From Oscillospiraceae bacterium (GTDB taxonomy: Bacteria > Bacillota > Clostridia > Oscillospirales > Acutalibacteraceae), in NCBI GenBank assembly GCA_902792985.1, contig CADBBT010000007.1:1-51216 (forward strand): a stretch of DNA of 51,216 bases, written 5' to 3'. The notes beneath the pieces were generated by a model, which was not told where the DNA came from, did not search any database, and saw nothing but the letters and a program-made list of their open reading frames with translations. Made by a program: the position numbers and the translations under genes. The number at the start of each line of letters is the position of its first letter. The first letter of the stretch is position 1. This document shows positions 29,127 to 50,318 of this stretch, piece after piece.

Positions 29127-30290
29127 TCAGGTCGTTTCTTTCCAACGCAATTTGATATACTTCCTCACCCAGTCGGGATCGTCATAATCACCGTATTCAC
29201 TCATTTGACAGCCGGAGCAGAGATCGTTCGCCATTTCAAGTATCACGTCATACAGTTCCAGATCCCTTTTCCATTGATCGTCGATCGCGTCAAAGCCGAG
29301 CCACGCGCCGAGGATGTTGCCTGTAATCGCACCGGTGGAATCGCTGTCGCCGTTGTGGTTGACTGCTGCGATAATGCCTGCCGAGAAATCATTTTGATAA
29401 CGCAGGGCGCAGTAAATGGCGATCACGAGCGCTTCTTCGCCGACCCATCCTTCGCCGAGGGTGTGGATATTGTCAAGGTCGATTTTGTCGTTTTCGGAGA
29501 GCGCGATCGCTGTATCGATCAAAGATGTCAGTTCATTCAAGTGTCGGTCGCCCACAAAAATCTCCGCGACTGTATCGCGCGCTTCCTCCACGATCTCTTT
29601 GAGTGTCATCCCACGATTGGAATAGACAATTTGATGGACGATGTGCGTCAGCACCGCCGCCGGCATATAGCCGAGGGAGTGCCCGTGCGTGATCGCTGCG
29701 AGCTCCGCGCCTTCGCGGTCGATTGTTTTTATATCGGCATACAGATACCTTTTCAGCCCCATCGGCGCAACACGCATCACGCCGCCGCAGCCCTTGCTGT
29801 GATTGATGGGGTGATCGATATAGCTTTCTTTGTCCGCGTCGCCTCGTGTATACAGGGCGGACAGGCAGGTGTTGCCGGGCGCACGCTGGTGATAGAGCTC
29901 CGGTACATCGGAAAGCCAGGAGATGCAGCGGTTCTGTTTTTTATCCTTCTGAGCCTGTGAAAAAGACATCTCCTGCGTGCGCAGCCAGTCCTTATACGCG
30001 TGGAGCATGTACATGCTGGGCTGACCGCCGATCCCGCGCATAGCAACGCGCGTTTCCGCAAACAGCAGACCGTTCGCTGTGAAAAGCGTCATTTGCGTAT
30101 CGTCGGAAATGAGCGCTTTGCCGGAGCTGGGGTCAAGCGCGTAGGCACGGATGCCGCCGGAACCGTACTTTGCAAAGATACTGCCTTCGCTGTCAAATTC
30201 AACGGCATAGCCAAGTGCATCACCGGCAGCGCCGCCGATCAGACAGCCGCGGATCTTATCGAGGTGTTGTTTGTTTTGCTGTTCTTTCAT
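29127..30290 (-). CDS. ADP-ribosylglycohydrolase family protein
   Basis: A 387-residue enzyme of the ARH/DraG family. The two metal sites are visible: GDALGYAVEF and SDDTQM at the N-terminal side, and GDSDSTGAITGNILGA at the C-terminal side. Di-magnesium ARH enzymes remove ADP-ribose from modified proteins or other acceptors. The start at 30290 follows GGGAGA; the longer frame upstream lacks a better site. No ADP-ribosyltransferase gene is nearby, so the target modification is unknown. The neighbours are a HIRAN protein and a CFI-box repeat protein. Confidence 0.9.
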   Translation of the reverse strand: MKEQQNKQHLDKIRGCLIGGAAGDALGYAVEFDSEGSIFAKYGSGGIRAYALDPSSGKALISDDTQMTLFTANGLLFAETRVAMRGIGGQPSMYMLHAYKDWLRTQEMSFSQAQKDKKQNRCISWLSDVPELYHQRAPGNTCLSALYTRGDADKESYIDHPINHSKGCGGVMRVAPMGLKRYLYADIKTIDREGAELAAITHGHSLGYMPAAVLTHIVHQIVYSNRGMTLKEIVEEARDTVAEIFVGDRHLNELTSLIDTAIALSENDKIDLDNIHTLGEGWVGEEALVIAIYCALRYQNDFSAGIIAAVNHNGDSDSTGAITGNILGAWLGFDAIDDQWKRDLELYDVILEMANDLCSGCQMSEYGDYDDPDWVRKYIKLRWKETT

Positions 30291-30310
30291 AGTATATGTC
30301 TCCCGCAAGT

Positions 30311-30709
30311 TCAATCCTGCAAATAAATCCCGATCTGAATGCGCAGCCACTTGCCGCGCGTTTCTTTTTCCTTGATGCGCCCGAACAGCTGCTTGCCGGC
30401 GTCCATCAATCTGGCAAAGATCAGGTTGTCCTTTTCCGGCACATAGCCGATCTTGGTGCCGGTCTCCGTCTGAATCATGATCGCCTTCGGGTCGTATGGG
30501 TTCTCCGGCTCGCGGAAGAACAGAAGCTTTTCACCGATCTCCAGGTACGGTTCCAGTTCCTCGATGCCTTCAATATGCGTCGTTCCGGCAACATGGGAAT
30601 CGAACAAGTGAATCTCGCGTTCAAAAGGCTTCGGAATCGTCAAGCCGCCGGTGCTGTGCAGCAAGCCGACAAGTCCGCTGCCGCCGCCCGTTGTTGTTAA
30701 GTCGCCCAT
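30311..30709 (-). CDS. HIRAN-domain protein
   Basis: A 132-residue protein whose C-terminal 95 residues match the HIRAN domain. Diagnostic parts are the HxEGIEELEPYLEIGEKL segment, FFREPENPYDPKAIMI and GYVPEKDNLIFARLMDAGK. In HLTF the domain binds 3-prime single-stranded DNA ends; in bacteria it occurs alone or in mobile and repair-linked loci. It starts four bases after the J-domain gene and is probably coupled to it. Confidence 0.85.
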   Translation of the reverse strand: MGDLTTTGGGSGLVGLLHSTGGLTIPKPFEREIHLFDSHVAGTTHIEGIEELEPYLEIGEKLLFFREPENPYDPKAIMIQTETGTKIGYVPEKDNLIFARLMDAGKQLFGRIKEKETRGKWLRIQIGIYLQD

Positions 30710-30713
30710 GTTC

Positions 30714-31511
30714 TCACTCCATCATGTGATTGATTTGTTCCTGCATGTCAGTGATAGCCTTTGTATATTCGTCGATCAACGCCTGCAGTTCTTCGCGTCG
30801 TTCCGCGATCATTGCCTCATCCCGCAGCAGATCCCGTTCCGTGTACGGGAACGAGGTCTTGATCGTGTCGATCTCCGTGCGGACGGTCTTAGCCAGTTTC
30901 CGCAGCTGCTCCCGGCGGTTTTGCAGTTCCTGCACGGCGTTCTGCTTTTCGGCGGGAAGCTCCTCCTGACAAACCATATCGTCGATCATACGAAGTGTCA
31001 TCAGGTCGCCGTTTTCATAGGCGCTCACTGCCTGATGGAACAGATCGATCTGCGCCGGTGTCACGTCGGGATTCAGATCCGGATGCAGCGCTTTCACAAT
31101 GCGGCGATAGCGTTTTTTGACTTCCTTTGTCTCTTCTTCCGTCAACTCTCTGGCGTTTTTACGATTCGCCGCATCCTGCGTTTTCCGGATCTGTTCGTTC
31201 AGTTTTGCCTGATAGGACGCGAACTCCTCGTCAAGCATTGCGTCGATGAGTTCCAGATCCACCTGCTCCCGGCGATTCAGACGCGCCCGGATCATTTCCG
31301 CTTTCCGCTTCAGCCGCAGATACTTGCATTGCAGCGAAAACGCCTGATGTTCCAGTCCGCCGAGACGAAGCATGTATTCCATTTCGATGTTTTTGCAAAT
31401 GACATACTGCAGCTCGTCGCGCTGCGCCATCAGCATGGAGATCTCGGTGGTCGGCCGCTCGATCTCCTTTTTCAGTTCCTCGATTTCGGGGAACACAATG
31501 ATGTCACCCAT
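30714..31511 (-). CDS. Coiled-coil protein with a J-domain-like segment
   Basis: A 265-residue, highly charged helical protein. Residues about 125-180 contain KKRYRRIVKALHPDLNPDVTPAQ, a J-domain-like core with an HPD motif, placed inside the protein instead of at the N-terminus. Both flanks are predicted coiled coil. It may recruit DnaK to a client. The start at 31511 is set by CGGGAGGTG. It is the first gene of a minus-strand run of four or five genes ending at 27901. Confidence 0.75.
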   Translation of the reverse strand: MGDIIVFPEIEELKKEIERPTTEISMLMAQRDELQYVICKNIEMEYMLRLGGLEHQAFSLQCKYLRLKRKAEMIRARLNRREQVDLELIDAMLDEEFASYQAKLNEQIRKTQDAANRKNARELTEEETKEVKKRYRRIVKALHPDLNPDVTPAQIDLFHQAVSAYENGDLMTLRMIDDMVCQEELPAEKQNAVQELQNRREQLRKLAKTVRTEIDTIKTSFPYTERDLLRDEAMIAERREELQALIDEYTKAITDMQEQINHMME

Positions 31512-31545
31512 AAAAACACCTCCCGTCGAATCGTTTCTAAGGATT

Positions 31546-31574
31546 ATCATACCACTGCTTGAAAACATTTGCAA
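31546..31574 (-). promoter_or_regulatory. Promoter of the J-domain/HIRAN/ADP-ribosylglycohydrolase cluster
   Basis: On the minus strand: TTGCAA, 17 bases, TATGAT, 35 bases before the start codon. Confidence 0.75.
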
Positions 31575-31663
31575 CAATTATCGTAACCGGGCTTTCTTAA
31601 AGTCCGTGAAACGGGAGTTTGCGCTGGACATATGTTCTTTTTCGCGAAACCAGCGTCTTCCGC

Positions 31664-32229: not shown

Positions 32230-33522
32230 TTACTTTCTGCCGAGCAGGCGTGAGAAATGCCAGAGGATGGTATGGAATAATTTGGTGATCCGGCCGAAGA
32301 AAGATGTGCCGTGATCGACGTTGTCCCAGTTGCAGAGGTTCGCGGGCACCGGGTCGTTTGTATCGTTCTGCGGCGCGCTCGTCAGTTCGGGATCGGGCGT
32401 CGGGGCGATATACGGCTGTGTCAAAGTCAGCAGACGCATCGGGTTCGCCGCTTCGCCGTTCGCAAACAGCGCAATGGTTTCGTTGCACGCGACCGGCACG
32501 CCGAACGCGCCCAATTCATCATTGCCGACGGGGATATAAACCCAGAATCTAAAAACGGGTGCGTTTTCGATGCGTTTTGCCAGCGTTTCGCACGGGAGCG
32601 TCTCATACGCAACCAGATCTTGACGGGATAAGATCAGGCGCCCGTTCTCCGCATTGATCAGGTTGACTGTCATCCGGGCGTTGTTGTCGGTGTTGCCGCA
32701 GATCGCGGCGTGATTGTAGCCCGCGACCACGCTGCTGCCGATGTTTGTGATATTGACAACGGTATCGGCGTTTGCGGAAACGGACATCGCACCGCACCAT
32801 CTGGCGGCCAGGATTTCGGCATTGTCAAACACAAGGTGAAAGGATTTTGCTTCGCCGGATTCGTTGAAGATCATCAACGGGGTGTCGGCGGCGCGGGTAC
32901 CGGTGATGACGTAGGAGCCCTGATGCGGGATCAGCGGAACGCGATCGGCTTCCCTGAGGGGATGCTCAAATGTATCGACCACGCGGTAGCCGTCGGGATA
33001 CAGGAGTATACAGCCGTCAGCAAGGTTGAGTGTCACGGTGTCGGACGGAACCGGGGACTCGCCGCGCAGGCGCAAAACCAGATGCAAGGTGCTTTCTTTC
33101 TGAATGTTGTAATCGGCGAGCGTTCTGCCGTCTTCCAGCTGCGTGCCGTTGAAGAGCAGCCGCTGCTGATCGGGCGGAATGTTCTCTTTTTCCTGGATCT
33201 TCTGCTTGATGTTTTCGATCGTGTCGTTCGGCACCGTTTCAAGCGTGAGCGTTTTGCCGGTCAGCGTGCGCACGAAGATCTGCATAGAAGTGTTGTTGAT
33301 TGCATTGGACGTGCCGTCGTTGATGTAGGGTTTGTCCGGCTTGACGTCGCCTTTGATGTCGTCCTCTCTGACGTCCGGCTCCACGTTCTGGTTGCCGCTT
33401 TCCCCATGCCCGGGGAGCAGCGGTGCGGAACCATTTCCGGCAAAGGCGAACGTCGGCAGTACCGAGAGCAGCAGGACGAGGGCCAACAGAAGGGCGGTCA
33501 GTTTTGTTTTGCGGTTTTTCAT
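32230..33522 (-). CDS. Secreted protein with an embedded ubiquitin domain
   Basis: A 430-residue exported protein. A signal peptide (1-28, ending FAFA) and an acidic linker (29-79) precede a ubiquitin domain at 80-155. By my alignment from memory 62 of 76 residues equal eukaryotic ubiquitin. Lys11, 27, 29, 33 and 63 are kept. Lys6 is Arg, Lys48 is Thr, Ile44 is Leu, and the end is LRLRGE, so Gly76 is missing. A beta-rich region (about 160-370) with GSYVITGT and [10 protein letters not shown] segments follows, resembling secreted beta-helix/carbohydrate-binding-like domains. A Pro-rich linker leads to a CxxD-x3-H, LFHTIL tail like that of the CHAP protein. The start at 33522 is chosen because AAGGAG is 7 bases upstream. 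Conjugation by the normal route is unlikely. Binding to host or predator ubiquitin-system proteins, or simple structural reuse, are alternatives. Confidence 0.9.
33058..33285 (-). other. Ubiquitin domain within the secreted protein
   Basis: This stretch encodes the 76 residues from [12 protein letters not shown] to LVLRLRGE. It sits in frame, without introns or repeats, and its codon choice (CTG, GGC, ATC, AAC, ACG) looks like that of the neighbouring genes. A very recent transfer from a eukaryote is therefore not evident from composition. Confidence 0.93.
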
Positions 33523-33588
33523 GTTCATACTCCTTTTCAGATGTTGTGATTGGGGGTGTGAAACGTTGCGCTTGTTTCTTACACACTT

Positions 33589-33617
33589 ATTATACGGACC
33601 CCCCATCCAAAAAGCAA
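33589..33617 (-). promoter_or_regulatory. Promoter of the ubiquitin-domain gene
   Basis: On the minus strand: TTGCTT, 17 bases, TATAAT. A run of six G residues lies in the spacer. Confidence 0.85.
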
Positions 33618-33656
33618 CATCTTTTCAGATATGACTTGTAAACCTGCAAAAACAGC

Positions 33657-33685
33657 TTGATTTTGCCTTTGATTTGCGGTATACT
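33657..33685 (+). promoter_or_regulatory. Promoter of the LytTR regulator gene
   Basis: TTGATT, 17 bases, TATACT, 23 bases before the start codon and divergent from the ubiquitin-gene promoter. Confidence 0.8.
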
Positions 33686-33708
33686 ATCCCTGACAGGAGG
33701 TGCAAAGT

Positions 33709-34521
33709 ATGATTCGGAACGAAATCGCCGACCGCTCGGCCGAGCTGATCATCCGCTATTATGAGAACGACTACCTGCCGTTTTTGCAAAGCATGGACGA
33801 CGATGCGCTGTGGTACGGTCCGGCCGAAGGGCAGTTTTTGCGCGGGCGGGAAACCATGCTGCGCGTCTGGGGCGCGGAAGAGCACAATCTGCGCTTCACG
33901 ATGGGCAATCTGAAGGTGGTGCACGCCAGCACGCATCCGTCGTTCTGCAACGTGATGCTGACTTACTCGGTCGTAACACATTACCCTGATGGGCACGACA
34001 TTTCGGTCTATCAGCGGCTTCTGCTCTGCTGGTGCGAGCGCAAAGAGAAGGATGAAGCCGGCAACGTGCATAAGGTGCCGCGTATTCTGGTCTGCCACAT
34101 CTCCAATCCCCACGGCAAGCATGAGGACGACGTGATCTATCCCACAAACTTCAGCCAGGTCTATGCCGGTTCCAACGCGCTGCCGCAGCAGGGCGAGCGC
34201 ATCCACTTTCACGGGCTGGACCGGTCGGACTATTTCTATTTGTCCGATTCGATCTACTGGATCGAGGCCGCGGCCGGCGGTAAGCACAGTATTCTGCACA
34301 CGGTCAATGATACAGTGGAGATCATGGCCACTGTCGCGTCGCTGGAAAAGACGTATCCCCACCTGTTCCTGCGCTGTCACCAGAGCTATTTGATCAACCC
34401 GCATTTTTTGCGTAACATCCGCCGCTTCGAGGTGACGCTGACCGACGGCACCGTTTTGCCGATCCCCGAAAAGAAATATACCGCCTTCCGTGCGGCGGCG
34501 ATGCAGGCGATCGGACACTGA
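33709..34521 (+). CDS. LytTR-type transcription regulator with an NTF2/SnoaL-like sensor domain
   Basis: A 270-residue protein. The N-terminal about 140 residues resemble a SnoaL/NTF2-like fold (RYYENDYLPFLQSMDDDALWYGP, FLRGRETMLRVW), which often binds a small ligand in a cone-shaped pocket. The C-terminal about 100 residues are a LytTR DNA-binding domain, with DSIYWIEA, FLRCHQSYLINPHFL and TDGTVLPIPEKKY as family marks. There is no receiver domain, so it is not a classical response regulator. ATG 33709 has CAGGAGG upstream. It is divergent from the ubiquitin-domain gene, which makes that gene a natural target candidate. Confidence 0.85.
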   Translation: MIRNEIADRSAELIIRYYENDYLPFLQSMDDDALWYGPAEGQFLRGRETMLRVWGAEEHNLRFTMGNLKVVHASTHPSFCNVMLTYSVVTHYPDGHDISVYQRLLLCWCERKEKDEAGNVHKVPRILVCHISNPHGKHEDDVIYPTNFSQVYAGSNALPQQGERIHFHGLDRSDYFYLSDSIYWIEAAAGGKHSILHTVNDTVEIMATVASLEKTYPHLFLRCHQSYLINPHFLRNIRRFEVTLTDGTVLPIPEKKYTAFRAAAMQAIGH

Positions 34522-34557
34522 GACGCGGCGCCGACAGGCCGGGAAAGAAGACCCCTC

Positions 34558-34652
34558 AACCTGATTTCGCTTGCTGAACCACGAAAACTTGGTGAACTTT
34601 TCTCACGCACAAATACTCCGCCGGATTTCTCCGACGGAGTATTTTTTAGATG
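34558..34652. repeat. Dispersed intergenic repeat with terminator hairpin, copy 2
   Basis: The same block order as at 27549: CTGATTTCGCTTGCTGAA, CTTGGTGAAC, then a hairpin ACTCCGCCGG/CCGACGGAGT (34615-34640, one mismatch) and a T-run. It can terminate the LytTR gene on the plus strand. Confidence 0.78.
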
Positions 34653-34759
34653 AACAAATGGACTGTGATGTCCTTTCACTGGTTCAGCCTTCGTTTTGGG
34701 GCGCGGCTGCGTTTTTGCAGTGGGCAATAAAACAATAATGACGTACCGTTCAAATGAGT

Positions 34760-35431
34760 TTAATATGAGAGTGTATTTTCGGCCATAAGCCGTGCGTATT
34801 TACGTAATGCGTCATAATCAGTTTCATCAATCTTTTTGCATGAGTCTTTTCCAGTTGTAAGATCAAGAACTCTCAAAGCATAGTGATATGTAAAAAAGAT
34901 AATGTCATATTTGTATTCTGCTTTAGAGTATATTTTATAGATGTGTTCTCTCCATTCTAATACAGTATTGGGAATAGGCATTTCATCCATAACCATAATC
35001 AAACCAAGTTTTATGTAACCCTTTTGCTTATAACTCGGAATCTTGTTTATCTTTTTCTGAAAAATCTTTTTCATTGCATCAAGTTCATCTTGCTTGGTTA
35101 TGCCAGGGGTGGTATAAGAGAACTCTGTTGCCAGACCACCTTTATTCTCAATTTGTTTAAGATAATGAGCTTTTCCTTTTTTTCTGTATTTTTCAAAGTC
35201 ACCTTCTATTGATTTAATCTTATTAATTGCTACTTCAGTGACTTCAATGCCCAAAGAGCGATCTGAACTTTGAAGATCTGGTGAATCACTTAATATAAGA
35301 CTGTCGTATTCGTTATAGCAATATCTTAAAACAGCAAAAGCTAATTGTTCAACATAATGCTTTCTAATCTCGAAGTCCATAGAAGAAGTAAACTCGAAAT
35401 TGCGTATTTCTTCTGTTAATTCTATGCTCAT
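34760..35431 (-). CDS. AT-rich unknown protein with a partial PD-(D/E)XK-like motif
   Basis: A 223-residue protein, AT-richer than its surroundings. Residues 51-66 (PDLQSSDRSLGIEVTEV) have the Pro-Asp and Glu of restriction-endonuclease-like folds. The Lys expected two residues after Glu63 is Thr, so activity is uncertain. The rest is Lys-rich alpha/beta with late conserved-looking aromatic strands (YDIIFFTYHY). It lies 54 bases behind the Mrr-like gene on the same strand, which suggests a shared mobile or defence-type origin. Confidence 0.6.
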   Translation of the reverse strand: MSIELTEEIRNFEFTSSMDFEIRKHYVEQLAFAVLRYCYNEYDSLILSDSPDLQSSDRSLGIEVTEVAINKIKSIEGDFEKYRKKGKAHYLKQIENKGGLATEFSYTTPGITKQDELDAMKKIFQKKINKIPSYKQKGYIKLGLIMVMDEMPIPNTVLEWREHIYKIYSKAEYKYDIIFFTYHYALRVLDLTTGKDSCKKIDETDYDALRKYARLMAENTLSY

Positions 35432-35485
35432 TTTTCACCACCATTTTTGTGTCCATTTAGAGCTGGTTTAGTGTCAGTTGAAAGG

Positions 35486-36130
35486 TTATTCAAAGTTTTC
35501 AATTAATACAACGCCAGTCTTTTCTGCAAATTCTTTTGCAGCTTTTGTGAATTGTGAGGTTGTAATGACCATGGCGATGTCACATGAGTAAAAACTTTTT
35601 GCGGAATACACCTCTTGAATTGCATGCAAACCAACTGGTTTTGAATAGCGTTTGCACTGAATACAGTATTGTTTTCCATCGCGAAAAGCCAAAATATCTG
35701 CGCCAAAGTCTCCACTGCTTTTTGTCACATTTACTCTTTTATATCCCATGCTTTCAAGCCGATCAGCAACATATTTCTCATATGCAAGACCGTTCATGTT
35801 GTTATTAGTATCTTTTTCCTTGTTAACTTCATTATCGTTAAGGGTAGAACCACCATAATATGTATGTGGGATAACTTCAAAATAATTATTGCTTTTTCTT
35901 TTCTTAATGCCAGTTCTTTCCGCGTTTTTGTTGTTGTTTCTCTTTTTTTGTTCGGTTTTATCAGTCATTCCTATTAAGCATATAATTAAACCAATAAGCC
36001 CAACTGACATAATGATAATTCCCTCTTTTTTCATGTCGCTTAAAGCCATCATGAGGCCGCCCATCGATAGAAGCAGGAAAACCAATAGAGCACAACCGCA
36101 ACCTTCATTATTATTGTTTTTTGAACTCAT
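35486..36130 (-). CDS. Membrane-anchored Mrr-type restriction endonuclease-like protein
   Basis: A 214-residue protein with two membrane helices (about 12-31 and 37-55), an Asn/Lys-rich linker, and a C-terminal Mrr catalytic domain. The active-site residues are complete: Glu118 in LAYEKYVADRL, Asp141 and Asp145 in SSGDFGADILA, and Gln158 and Lys160 in CIQCKRY. Soluble Mrr proteins cut modified DNA. The membrane-tethered form may act on incoming DNA or in another nuclease role. The start at 36130 has AGAGGTG upstream. Base composition is AT-rich, a sign of transfer. Confidence 0.85.
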   Translation of the reverse strand: MSSKNNNNEGCGCALLVFLLLSMGGLMMALSDMKKEGIIIMSVGLIGLIICLIGMTDKTEQKKRNNNKNAERTGIKKRKSNNYFEVIPHTYYGGSTLNDNEVNKEKDTNNNMNGLAYEKYVADRLESMGYKRVNVTKSSGDFGADILAFRDGKQYCIQCKRYSKPVGLHAIQEVYSAKSFYSCDIAMVITTSQFTKAAKEFAEKTGVVLIENFE

Positions 36131-36147
36131 TTTTTCACCTCTATAGA

Positions 36148-36176
36148 ATAATACCATACATTAGAATAAAAGTAAA
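36148..36176 (-). promoter_or_regulatory. Promoter of the Mrr-like gene
   Basis: On the minus strand: TTTACT, 17 bases, TATTAT. Confidence 0.65.
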
Positions 36177-36203
36177 GCTATCGTTGCACTTGGTTTTTTG
36201 AGT

Positions 36204-36277
36204 GGCAATTCGCATGTTGAGCGTGACCTCCCCCACACGCAAAAACTCCGCCGGATTTCTCCGACGGAGTTTTGATG
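36204..36277. repeat. Dispersed intergenic repeat with terminator hairpin, copy 3 (shortened)
   Basis: GCATGTTGA is followed by the same hairpin ACTCCGCCGG/CCGACGGAGT (36245-36270) and TTTT. The middle TTGGTGAAC block of copies 1 and 2 is absent. On the minus strand it stands just after the ppdK stop codon and should terminate that gene. Confidence 0.75.
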
Positions 36278-49088: not shown

Positions 49089-50318
49089 TTATTTATCGTT
49101 ACCGGCTGTTTTTGCGGTGGTCAAAGGCATGTGCCCGAAGAGGTCTGCAACGTAGTCGATCGCCATCACATTTGCCGCCTGCAGTTCGTGTGTGTAGATC
49201 TTCAGCGTGGTCGCCGTGTCGGAATGCCCGAGCACGGAACTGATCGTTTTCGGATCTACCTGCTTGCCGACGATCAGCTCTGTTGCAAAGCTGTGGCGCA
49301 TATTGTGCACCGCTTTGTAGGGCAGATCGTGCGCCTTGCAGAACTTGCGCAGAAAGTTGCGCGGCTGGTTCGGGTTGATCGGCTCACCGAACGTTTTGGT
49401 GAACAGCCGGTCGCATTCCACCCACTGGTCGCCGAGGTTGACTTTGTCGGTGTTCTGCTGAAACTTGAATTGCTTGAGCAGATTGACGACCTCCTCCGGC
49501 AGCTTGAGCACACGCTTGCTGGCTTTGGTCTTCGGATCGTTCGTGAACGTGCCGGTGGACTTGTTGCAATACTCGCTCGTGCGCCGGATCTGCATGATCC
49601 CGGTGGAAAGGTCGATGTCCGACCATTCCAGCCCGGCAACTTCTCCGATGCGCATGCCGGTGTAGATCACGAGCGCAAAGAAGACATAGTACTTCATCGG
49701 CGCGTCCTTTGCGAGCGCCGCGAGCAGCGCTTTCTCTTCGGCCAGTGTATAGATGTTGTGCGGCTTCGACGGGATCTGTTTGACGATGACGCCCTGACAC
49801 GGATTGGTTTCGCGGATGCCGCATCTGATTGCGTAGCGCATGACGTTTGACACGAGCGTCAGATGATGCACCTGCGACTTTGTTCCGAGTCCGCCGCCGG
49901 TGCGCTGGTTCATGCCGGGTTCGCTCAGCGACGTGATGAACGACTGCACATCCCGGTAGCGGATGGATGCGACCGGCAGATTGCCGAGTGCACGGTAGGT
50001 GCGCTCTCTGCAGGAGAGCAGCCGCTGCAGACTGGACAGACGCATGGTGTTCATCTGTTCCACTAGATGCAGATATTCATCGGCGAGTTCGCGGAAACAG
50101 ACGTTGGTCTGCGAGAACTGTCCGCTTTTGACTTTTTCTTCAAACAGAATACATTGCTTTTGTGCTTCCCGTTCGGCCTGCCGTGCAGACATCGACGGGT
50201 CGGGGTGCCACGTCATCTGATGGATGATCTGTTTGCCAAGACCGTCGTAACCGTCAGAGACGCGAATGTTATAACTGACCACTCCTTTCTTGCTGATACG
50301 TTTTGAAACTTGAGCCAT
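49089..50318 (-). CDS. Tyrosine recombinase (integrase) of an integrative element
   Basis: A 409-residue phage/ICE-type integrase. An N-terminal arm-binding region and a SAM-like core-binding domain (about 70-170) are followed by the catalytic domain. This has Arg223 in YTGMRIGE, His338 and Arg341 in HNMRHS, His365 in LGHSD and Tyr375 in IYTHE. All catalytic residues are present, so it should be active. Its 3-prime end is 76 bases from tRNA-Ser, the classical arrangement for integration into a tRNA gene. An excisionase-like gene precedes it. Confidence 0.95.
   Translation of the reverse strand: MAQVSKRISKKGVVSYNIRVSDGYDGLGKQIIHQMTWHPDPSMSARQAEREAQKQCILFEEKVKSGQFSQTNVCFRELADEYLHLVEQMNTMRLSSLQRLLSCRERTYRALGNLPVASIRYRDVQSFITSLSEPGMNQRTGGGLGTKSQVHHLTLVSNVMRYAIRCGIRETNPCQGVIVKQIPSKPHNIYTLAEEKALLAALAKDAPMKYYVFFALVIYTGMRIGEVAGLEWSDIDLSTGIMQIRRTSEYCNKSTGTFTNDPKTKASKRVLKLPEEVVNLLKQFKFQQNTDKVNLGDQWVECDRLFTKTFGEPINPNQPRNFLRKFCKAHDLPYKAVHNMRHSFATELIVGKQVDPKTISSVLGHSDTATTLKIYTHELQAANVMAIDYVADLFGHMPLTTAKTAGNDK

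Follow-up and report, generated by a model that had tools for sequence, protein, structure and literature searches.

A near-eukaryotic ubiquitin in a predicted exported fusion protein of a gut Clostridia bacterium, possibly a binding module outside the cell

Ubiquitin is taken as a mark of eukaryotes. What, then, would a bacterium do with a nearly eukaryotic ubiquitin that lies behind a signal peptide and next to a regulator gene? The question is raised by a minus-strand gene in contig CADBBT010000007.1 of GenBank assembly GCA_902792985.1 (Oscillospiraceae bacterium), whose positions 1 to 51,216 are the stretch of 51,216 nucleotides analysed here, called the window below. Its predicted features are a signal-peptide-like start, a full ubiquitin without a C-terminal Gly-Gly (GG), purifying selection, a LytTR regulator gene as neighbour and a LytTR-spaced repeat by a putative promoter, and together they suggest that exported bacterial ubiquitin is a binding module outside the cell and not a protein tag. 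More specifically, we propose that this is a regulated, exported ubiquitin that acts as a non-covalent binding module with a eukaryotic partner, a reading to which we give a probability of about 45%. The parts of the predicted protein are:

32230..33522, minus strand: coding sequence of the predicted exported ubiquitin fusion, 430 amino acids plus stop, with its ATG at 33522
33439..33522, minus strand: signal peptide [28 protein letters not shown], recognised by eye, with predicted cleavage site AFA
33286..33438, minus strand: linker of 51 amino acids from signal peptide to ubiquitin, read from the sequence
33058..33285, minus strand: ubiquitin domain, 76 codons, MQIF...LRLRGE, residues 80–155 of the precursor
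32395..33057, minus strand: downstream region without a Pfam family (Pfam scan and genome search)
32239..32301, minus strand: C-terminal helix, residues 408–428, from the AlphaFold2 model; this tail recurs in other open reading frames (ORFs) of the genome

How close is the domain to ubiquitin? The original prediction had placed a near-eukaryotic ubiquitin with 14 changes at 33058..33285, and alignment, Pfam and phmmer agree with it to the nucleotide; 62 of the 76 residues (82%) are identical to human ubiquitin. It had stated no strand, and the domain is on the minus strand (33285–33058), where it reads [76 protein letters not shown]; translating the plus strand gives an unrelated sequence. Measured against the ubiquitin sequence from the PDB search, to which we added what we take to be its Gly76, the differences are K6R, I13L, V17T, E18V, S20N, V26I, A28Q, D32E, G35N, I44L, A46N, K48T, S57A and G76E; the alignment thus contains all four of the substitutions singled out earlier (K6R, I44L, K48T, G76E) as well as the retained Lys11, 27, 29, 33 and 63. 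The Pfam ubiquitin profile PF00240 matches with an E-value (E) of 1.1e-27 and phmmer finds single PDB ubiquitins at E about 1e-37, so the match is far beyond chance. In the AlphaFold2 model the block-mean predicted local distance difference test score (pLDDT) is 86–96 at residues 81–150 (68 and 50 in the neighbouring blocks), and Foldseek pairs the model with single PDB ubiquitin chains at target-normalised template-modelling scores of about 0.9–0.98, so that the structure check proposed earlier came out as ubiquitin. The proposed tree check did likewise, since the window domain stays inside ubiquitin and not among generic beta-grasp domains. A generic bacterial beta-grasp domain of the ThiS/MoaD type is ruled out by the 82% identity together with that tree.

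The precursor would run from a signal peptide (residues 1–28) through a linker (29–79), the ubiquitin domain (80–155) and a region without a Pfam match to the helix at 408–428. The mechanical start of the ORF is 33606, upstream of the -10 box given below, which thus lies inside the mechanical ORF; the real start is likely ATG 33522, which has AAGGAG upstream. A signal peptide and linker ahead of the ubiquitin, as anticipated, are predicted here (28 and 51 amino acids, respectively), and the model has a helix at residues 2–27; the window has no cleavage site directly before Met1 of the ubiquitin, the linker lying between. The protein continues for 275 residues after the domain and so is not a free 76-residue ubiquitin. 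The domain closes RGE inside the fusion, in agreement with the earlier statement that there is no GG end. That statement's companion, a fusion to a beta-rich domain, stands as regards the fusion, but 'beta-rich' rests on the sequence and on modelled strands whose pLDDT is mostly below 50; AlphaFold2 is confident only for the signal peptide, the ubiquitin and the tail helix. Among 97 related genomes the downstream region has one relative, at 34% identity, in a signal-peptide protein without ubiquitin (G008, L143). The tail is of the type CxxC..H..FF..I..FFH with the second Cys absent, and a search of its own genome at the lenient threshold of E 10 gives 11 matches; apart from the window's own, five have E <0.002. 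Several ORFs of that genome (L122–L124, L126–L128) carry the type CxxCGxxH..FF..I..FFH, and this recurring tail is possibly an envelope anchor.

Is the ubiquitin sequence maintained? Among 24 gut domains of the window's clade (23 with K6R, and L023, which has K6), the median ratio of non-synonymous to synonymous differences per site (pN/pS) is 0.089 and the median pS 0.74, calculated over 275 of 276 pairs because one pair has no synonymous change. For seven pairs with a common downstream domain pN/pS is 0.26–0.68 in the rest of the ORF versus 0–0.14 in the ubiquitin; an eighth pair, the window and L016 (0.83 and 0.20, respectively), was left out because its downstream domains are unrelated. 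L016 belongs to G004, a genome of the same genus that holds the nearest relative of the window gene, and between it and the window's genome (G000; 2.6 Mb, 89% complete) dN/dS is 0.18 for the ubiquitin, 0.08 for the LytTR gene and a near-neutral 0.83 for signal peptide plus linker. Purifying selection thus acts on the ubiquitin domain within the window's clade and, in the comparison of G000 with G004, not on signal peptide plus linker. Across 79 domains of the signal-peptide type in the wider family (below), Gly76 is kept as in human ubiquitin in 24%, positions 73, 74 and 75 keep the human residue in 65, 65 and 56%, respectively, and a GG end before the fusion or stop is found in 13. The body positions S57, A28, V26, D32, S20 and P19 are as variable as positions 73–75 or more so, and positions 1–8 and 58–64 say little since the search patterns force part of them. 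A nearly eukaryotic body with a decaying conjugation end speaks for a role in which the folded body is recognised, and not for conjugation.

The original prediction had also noted that no conjugation genes are visible nearby, and indeed none of the E1, E2, JAB or deubiquitinase Pfam families has a match at E 0.001 among the 51 ORFs of the window. The profiles PF00179 (E2) and PF00443 (deubiquitinase, UCH) have no match in G000 at its 89% completeness, and no control genome matched either of them. Use of the ubiquitin as a conjugated modifier is set aside: the domain runs through RGE into the fusion, no GG is exposed and no E1, E2 or JAB gene is nearby.

Ahead of the gene lie the putative control elements and a divergent gene:

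33530..33535, minus strand: ribosome-binding site AAGGAG, from the sequence
33589..33594, minus strand: -10 box TATAAT, perfect, from the sequence
33612..33617, minus strand: -35 box TTGCTT, weak, 17 nt from the -10 box, from the sequence
33635..33659, minus strand: direct repeat CAAG-N17-CAAG, 21 bp start to start, a LytTR-type spacing, from the sequence
33700..34521, plus strand: divergent regulator gene with a LytTR DNA-binding domain (Pfam PF04397, E 4.7e-13)

The binding sites of LytTR proteins are direct repeats of 9 bp with a spacing of about 21 bp, and the repeat here is 17 bp ahead of the -35 box; the regulator gene's likely start is ATG 33709, and the N-terminal part of its product has no assigned domain. 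The consensus promoter scan did not list the window's -10/-35 pair, whose weak -35 box fails the rule of that scan. A LytTR homologue lies upstream of the ubiquitin gene and divergent from it in seven other loci (L016, L019, L025, L027, L040, L043 and L062), with one leucine-rich-repeat (LRR) protein gene in between at L019; counting loci with at least 1.1 kb upstream, this is 7/18 of the K6R type, or 8/19 with the window. At E 1e-40 the regulator is found in 2/98 genomes, its own and G004, both times beside ubiquitin, and a sample of 398 Bacillota genomes has no homologue at that threshold in the 397 other than its own. Twenty genomes or records chosen for holding ubiquitin were also searched; nine match the regulator at E 1e-20, one of them with a contig-end fragment (G509), and six of the other eight matches are at the ubiquitin locus. 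CAAG-N17-CAAG is present in 7/7 intergenic regions of directly paired LytTR–ubiquitin loci, window included, and in the whole window this spacing occurs six times on both strands (0.12 per kb). It is also present before the regulator of G508 and absent before that of G500. A scan for a longer repeat motif did no better than chance (two found; 28 of 100 shuffles gave at least as many). At L140, beside the LytTR homologue of G500, dockerin-serpin-like and dockerin-LRR-like proteins (judged by eye) flank the regulator, and no ubiquitin was seen within the 10 kb taken around it.

The ubiquitin-LRR protein of G004 (L006/L016) has the LytTR gene, promoter, signal peptide, linker, ubiquitin and tail in common with the window, and differs in having a leucine-rich-repeat domain, unrelated to the window's downstream region, in its place. 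One 1,491-bp block with 89.7% nucleotide identity (window 33058–34545) contains the LytTR gene, the intergenic region with the promoter, the signal peptide, the linker and the ubiquitin, and stops at the last ubiquitin codon; the tail then matches again (window 32262–32391, 79%), and the rest of the 114.7-kb G004 contig has only two more short blastn matches to the window. Because a contig of the same genus carries the same block, the window contig is no chimera with eukaryotic DNA, a possibility that had been raised with the original prediction. Synonymous divergence (dS) between G000 and G004 is 0.18 for the ubiquitin, 0.29 for LytTR and 0.38 for the housekeeping gene PPDK. A recent horizontal transfer is thus not supported, the block dS being of the same order as that of PPDK; the block was probably inherited, though its flanks are not syntenic, and would be old in both genomes with the downstream domain exchanged since. 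L019 shares the tail with the window (E 7e-14) and has a faint likeness in the linker (E 0.008 and 5.3); one suggestion is that two tandem genes, arranged as they are there, fused to give the window protein. Contig C43 of the window's genome carries another ubiquitin-domain gene, a divergent one (L002; 33/76 identical to human). In L002, L010 and L014, all of this genus, such a divergent ubiquitin-like domain (33–34/76) is found inside large repeat proteins.

How widespread are such genes? PF00240 matches in 11/98 genomes (the window's own plus 97 relatives), 10 of them over the Pfam cut-off and nine from the window's genus (34 genomes of the genus in the set). In the even sample of 398 Bacillota genomes, own included, five match, four over the cut-off and two of those partial and weak; the gene is thus patchy. 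It is not, however, the separate, isolated case that had been envisaged: scanning a species-genome collection with seven domains gave at least 586 pattern matches, at least 442 of which are relatives; several phyla are represented, and some of the records are named isolates. Of the relatives, the best 80 were taken as loci. These and loci from the searches of the 98 genomes and of a viral collection, after removal of duplicates (L001, L003, L005, L006, L013), of rows too weak or partial (L011, L012, L015, L107–L115) and of four with 33–47/76 identity (L002, L010, L014, L106), make up a family set of 94 loci with a domain at least 50/76 identical to human ubiquitin; they are loci and not genomes, some of which give two (L020 and L036; L030 and L062).

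By simple rules, 78/94 loci have a signal-peptide-like stretch within 60 amino acids upstream and 66/94 an A-x-A-like site immediately ahead of Met1; L016, which does have a signal peptide, fails the 60-residue rule owing to its long linker. By record title, 80 loci (the 78 plus L016 and L075) comprise 38 Bacillota plus four of the window's genus, 18 Pseudomonadota, five Verrucomicrobiota, two Actinomycetota, two Methanobacteriota, one from each of four other groups, and seven viral-collection contigs. Ruminant-gut bins make up many of the Bacillota records (titles name goat, sheep and buffalo; we take the code RUG in record names to mean ruminant gut), and the named isolates include, again by title, Conexibacter, Dyella, Rhodobacter, Loktanella, Pseudohaliea and Sphingomonas. 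Dyella sp. OK004 (L039) has, on a 1.3-Mb contig, a signal peptide followed directly by a free 76-residue ubiquitin that is 75/76 identical to human and ends GG. Loci L045, L047, L050, L051, L059, L061 and L083, which have no signal peptide, are likely eukaryotic contamination, and L063, a tandem polyubiquitin in a 'Nitrospinota' bin, also looks like contamination; suspect loci without a signal peptide are counted in the 94 and not used as support. Phages gave no match and plasmids three records. Of 20 viral-collection loci, 11 (L096–L106) have a domain at least 47/76 identical to human, seven with a signal-peptide-like start.

Pfam architectures were obtained for 60 of the 74 sequences of at least 130 amino acids, read from Met1 to the stop (22 of the 94 loci are shorter, and the 60 are not a random sample; outside the count are L028, L045, L049, L059, L061, L062, L063, L065, L094, L098, L101, L104, L105 and L106). 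They contain dockerin I in 13, an autotransporter beta-domain in nine, GLUG in five, LRR_4 in four, Cthe_2159 in three and SLH in two, and the dockerin, autotransporter and SLH counts indicate that ubiquitin often fronts proteins carrying the lineage's own surface or export module. In a tree of 74 columns, built without the Bacteroides fragilis ubiquitin BfUbb, the window joins L016 (support 100/95), and the two sit in a supported set of 25 rows (97/91), 24 of them with K6R, whose titles name nearly all Clostridia or their families and one Verrucomicrobia. L004, L007, L008, L009 and L093 (the G015 locus), all of the window's genus, form with three more rows a separate supported set (100/99), and L002, L010 and L014 a third, distant one; exported ubiquitins of more than one lineage thus occur in the genus. 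The majority of the remaining forks lack resolution, the bootstrap had not converged, and the tree gives no count of transfers from eukaryotes.

Among the open-licence PMC papers that our searches listed, we found no description of the LytTR–ubiquitin pair or of the broad family. The window case is of the same kind as BfUbb and differs, as predicted from sequence, in its fusion, probable tether, linker and regulator. Both have a signal peptide and a eukaryotic-like ubiquitin without GG in a gut bacterium, and the portions of the BfUbb accounts consulted report no conjugation machinery. BfUbb is a free 76-residue protein, exported, without GG and 63% identical to human ubiquitin (PMC3352274), whereas the window domain is 82% identical and has a linker, a fusion, a tail helix and the LytTR neighbour. 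According to PMC5705921 (mBio 2017), BfUbb is antibacterial and is cleaved exactly before Met1, and B. fragilis is 'one of a few bacteria' with a eukaryotic-like ubiquitin. Also comparable is the 'ubiquitin family protein' WP_013483628.1 of gut Clostridia, on the Ruminococcus albus 7 plasmid pRUMAL01, which likewise has a signal peptide, a ubiquitin (66/76 to human) and a downstream fusion and differs in its cleavage site directly before Met1 and in keeping K6; pRUMAL01 has no LytTR homologue at E 1e-20 (plasmid only; the chromosome was not searched). On this mobilizable plasmid (L116) the ubiquitin fusion gene is in a same-strand run with genes for small signal-peptide proteins, a PI-PLC-like protein and a dockerin protein. 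The secreted ubiquitin of the nematode Globodera rostochiensis also has a signal peptide, a C-terminal extension and a role outside the producing cell, and differs in its eukaryotic producer, its plant host and the cleavage of its extension, as described in PMC5705921.

How might the window gene work as a regulated, exported binding module? The LytTR regulator, on some signal, would bind the repeat and switch the ubiquitin gene on; the preprotein would leave through Sec; the C-terminal helix would hold the protein at the envelope, with the linker letting the ubiquitin reach outward; and, as the least secure step, the ubiquitin body may bind ubiquitin-recognising eukaryotic proteins in the habitat as a decoy, inhibitor or adhesin, without being a conjugated tag. 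Candidate eukaryotes are rumen ciliates, other protists, gut epithelium and shed host cells. Several points weigh against this. The search patterns (MQIFV.., DYNIQKE) and the choice of the best 80 favour conserved copies and so overstate conservation. The Ile44 face, for which we took what we presume to be its residues, is no more conserved than other positions (p 0.25), and in that area the window carries I44L, A46N and K48T. A LytTR gene is present in only 8/86 loci of all types, window included (7/85 without it), and G500 and G508 carry the regulator away from ubiquitin. The familiar role of LytTR regulators is, moreover, chiefly in the control of bacteriocins and of other factors for competition or virulence, a link that fits a BfUbb-like function as well or better. 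Export, tethering, regulation and the binding partner all stand as predictions.

Such a function would make the protein an antibacterial one, whose ubiquitin would attach to competitor bacteria or get into them and block a target there, under a LytTR switch like those of bacteriocin loci. BfUbb, too, has a signal peptide and no GG, and its bare 76-residue synthetic form is inhibitory to sensitive B. fragilis strains in the account of PMC5705921; Tyr119 of a B. fragilis peptidyl-prolyl isomerase is cited in PMC12396204 as critical for sensitivity. The regulator and repeats beside the window gene fit as well. The window ubiquitin is, however, fused and perhaps tethered, its near-eukaryotic sequence recurs across phyla, its pN/pS is low, and weapons often diversify. 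BfUbb producers seem from PMC5705921 to need no immunity gene. On the whole we regard an antibacterial role as unlikely, if a serious contender. The ubiquitin fold might instead be a stable, protease-resistant N-terminal block of modular secreted proteins, acquired once or more and shuffled. Exchange of downstream domains (the window/G004 block is common to the last ubiquitin codon and then different), the occurrence of the tail and downstream region in proteins without ubiquitin, and an Ile44 face without special conservation all favour this. Yet a mere scaffold should keep its fold and not a near-eukaryotic sequence at near-saturated synonymous sites, and would hardly need an accompanying regulator gene, and we consider it improbable.

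Could the ubiquitin be handed to eukaryotic enzymes of conjugation or cleavage, as an E1 suicide substrate or a fusion cut by a deubiquitinase? BfUbb is described in PMC3352274 as inhibiting ubiquitination in vitro and binding human E1 covalently. The 13 GG-ended domains of the family would suit this too. The window domain, by contrast, is fused after RGE and offers no GG for cleavage or activation, and no route into a eukaryotic cytosol is known, none having been searched for here; we consider this reading very improbable. To an assembly or contamination artefact from eukaryotic DNA we give next to no weight. Some fetched loci do look contaminated, namely the polyubiquitin L063 and the copies lacking a signal peptide, but the window has a predicted bacterial signal peptide, ribosome-binding site and promoter, and named isolates and a complete Ruminococcus albus plasmid hold such genes; for the window an artefact is ruled out by the block on the G004 contig.

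The preferred reading, a binding module with a eukaryotic partner, can be extended to the family: bacteria of several phyla, chiefly those that live among ciliates and other protists, may display eukaryotic ubiquitin on their surface as regulated mimicry directed at the ubiquitin-binding proteins of eukaryotes, and the rumen Clostridia may do so with a cassette of LytTR regulator and ubiquitin in which the last codon of the ubiquitin is the point where downstream domains are swapped. In this breadth the idea is tentative and somewhat doubtful. The loci nonetheless suggest that near-eukaryotic signal-peptide ubiquitins are found in several phyla, often with surface modules, and in one gut clade with a regulator gene. 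The role of bacterial extracellular ubiquitin thereby becomes directly testable, which matters for understanding the relations of rumen bacteria to protists and to one another.

The window also holds further genes. Downstream of the ubiquitin gene, 29127–31577 has, in a row, genes for an ADP-ribosylglycohydrolase, a HIRAN-domain protein and a DnaJ-like protein (below the Pfam cut-off). Beyond the regulator gene, 34604–36273 is a stretch of low guanine-plus-cytosine content (34% at 35–36 kb) with two minus-strand genes, the second of which encodes an Mrr-type restriction endonuclease (PF04471). Two 40-nt hairpin-forming repeats that resemble each other (90%) flank the stretch, which looks like an inserted island. 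Near the end of the window, at 49089–50318, is a phage-type integrase gene.
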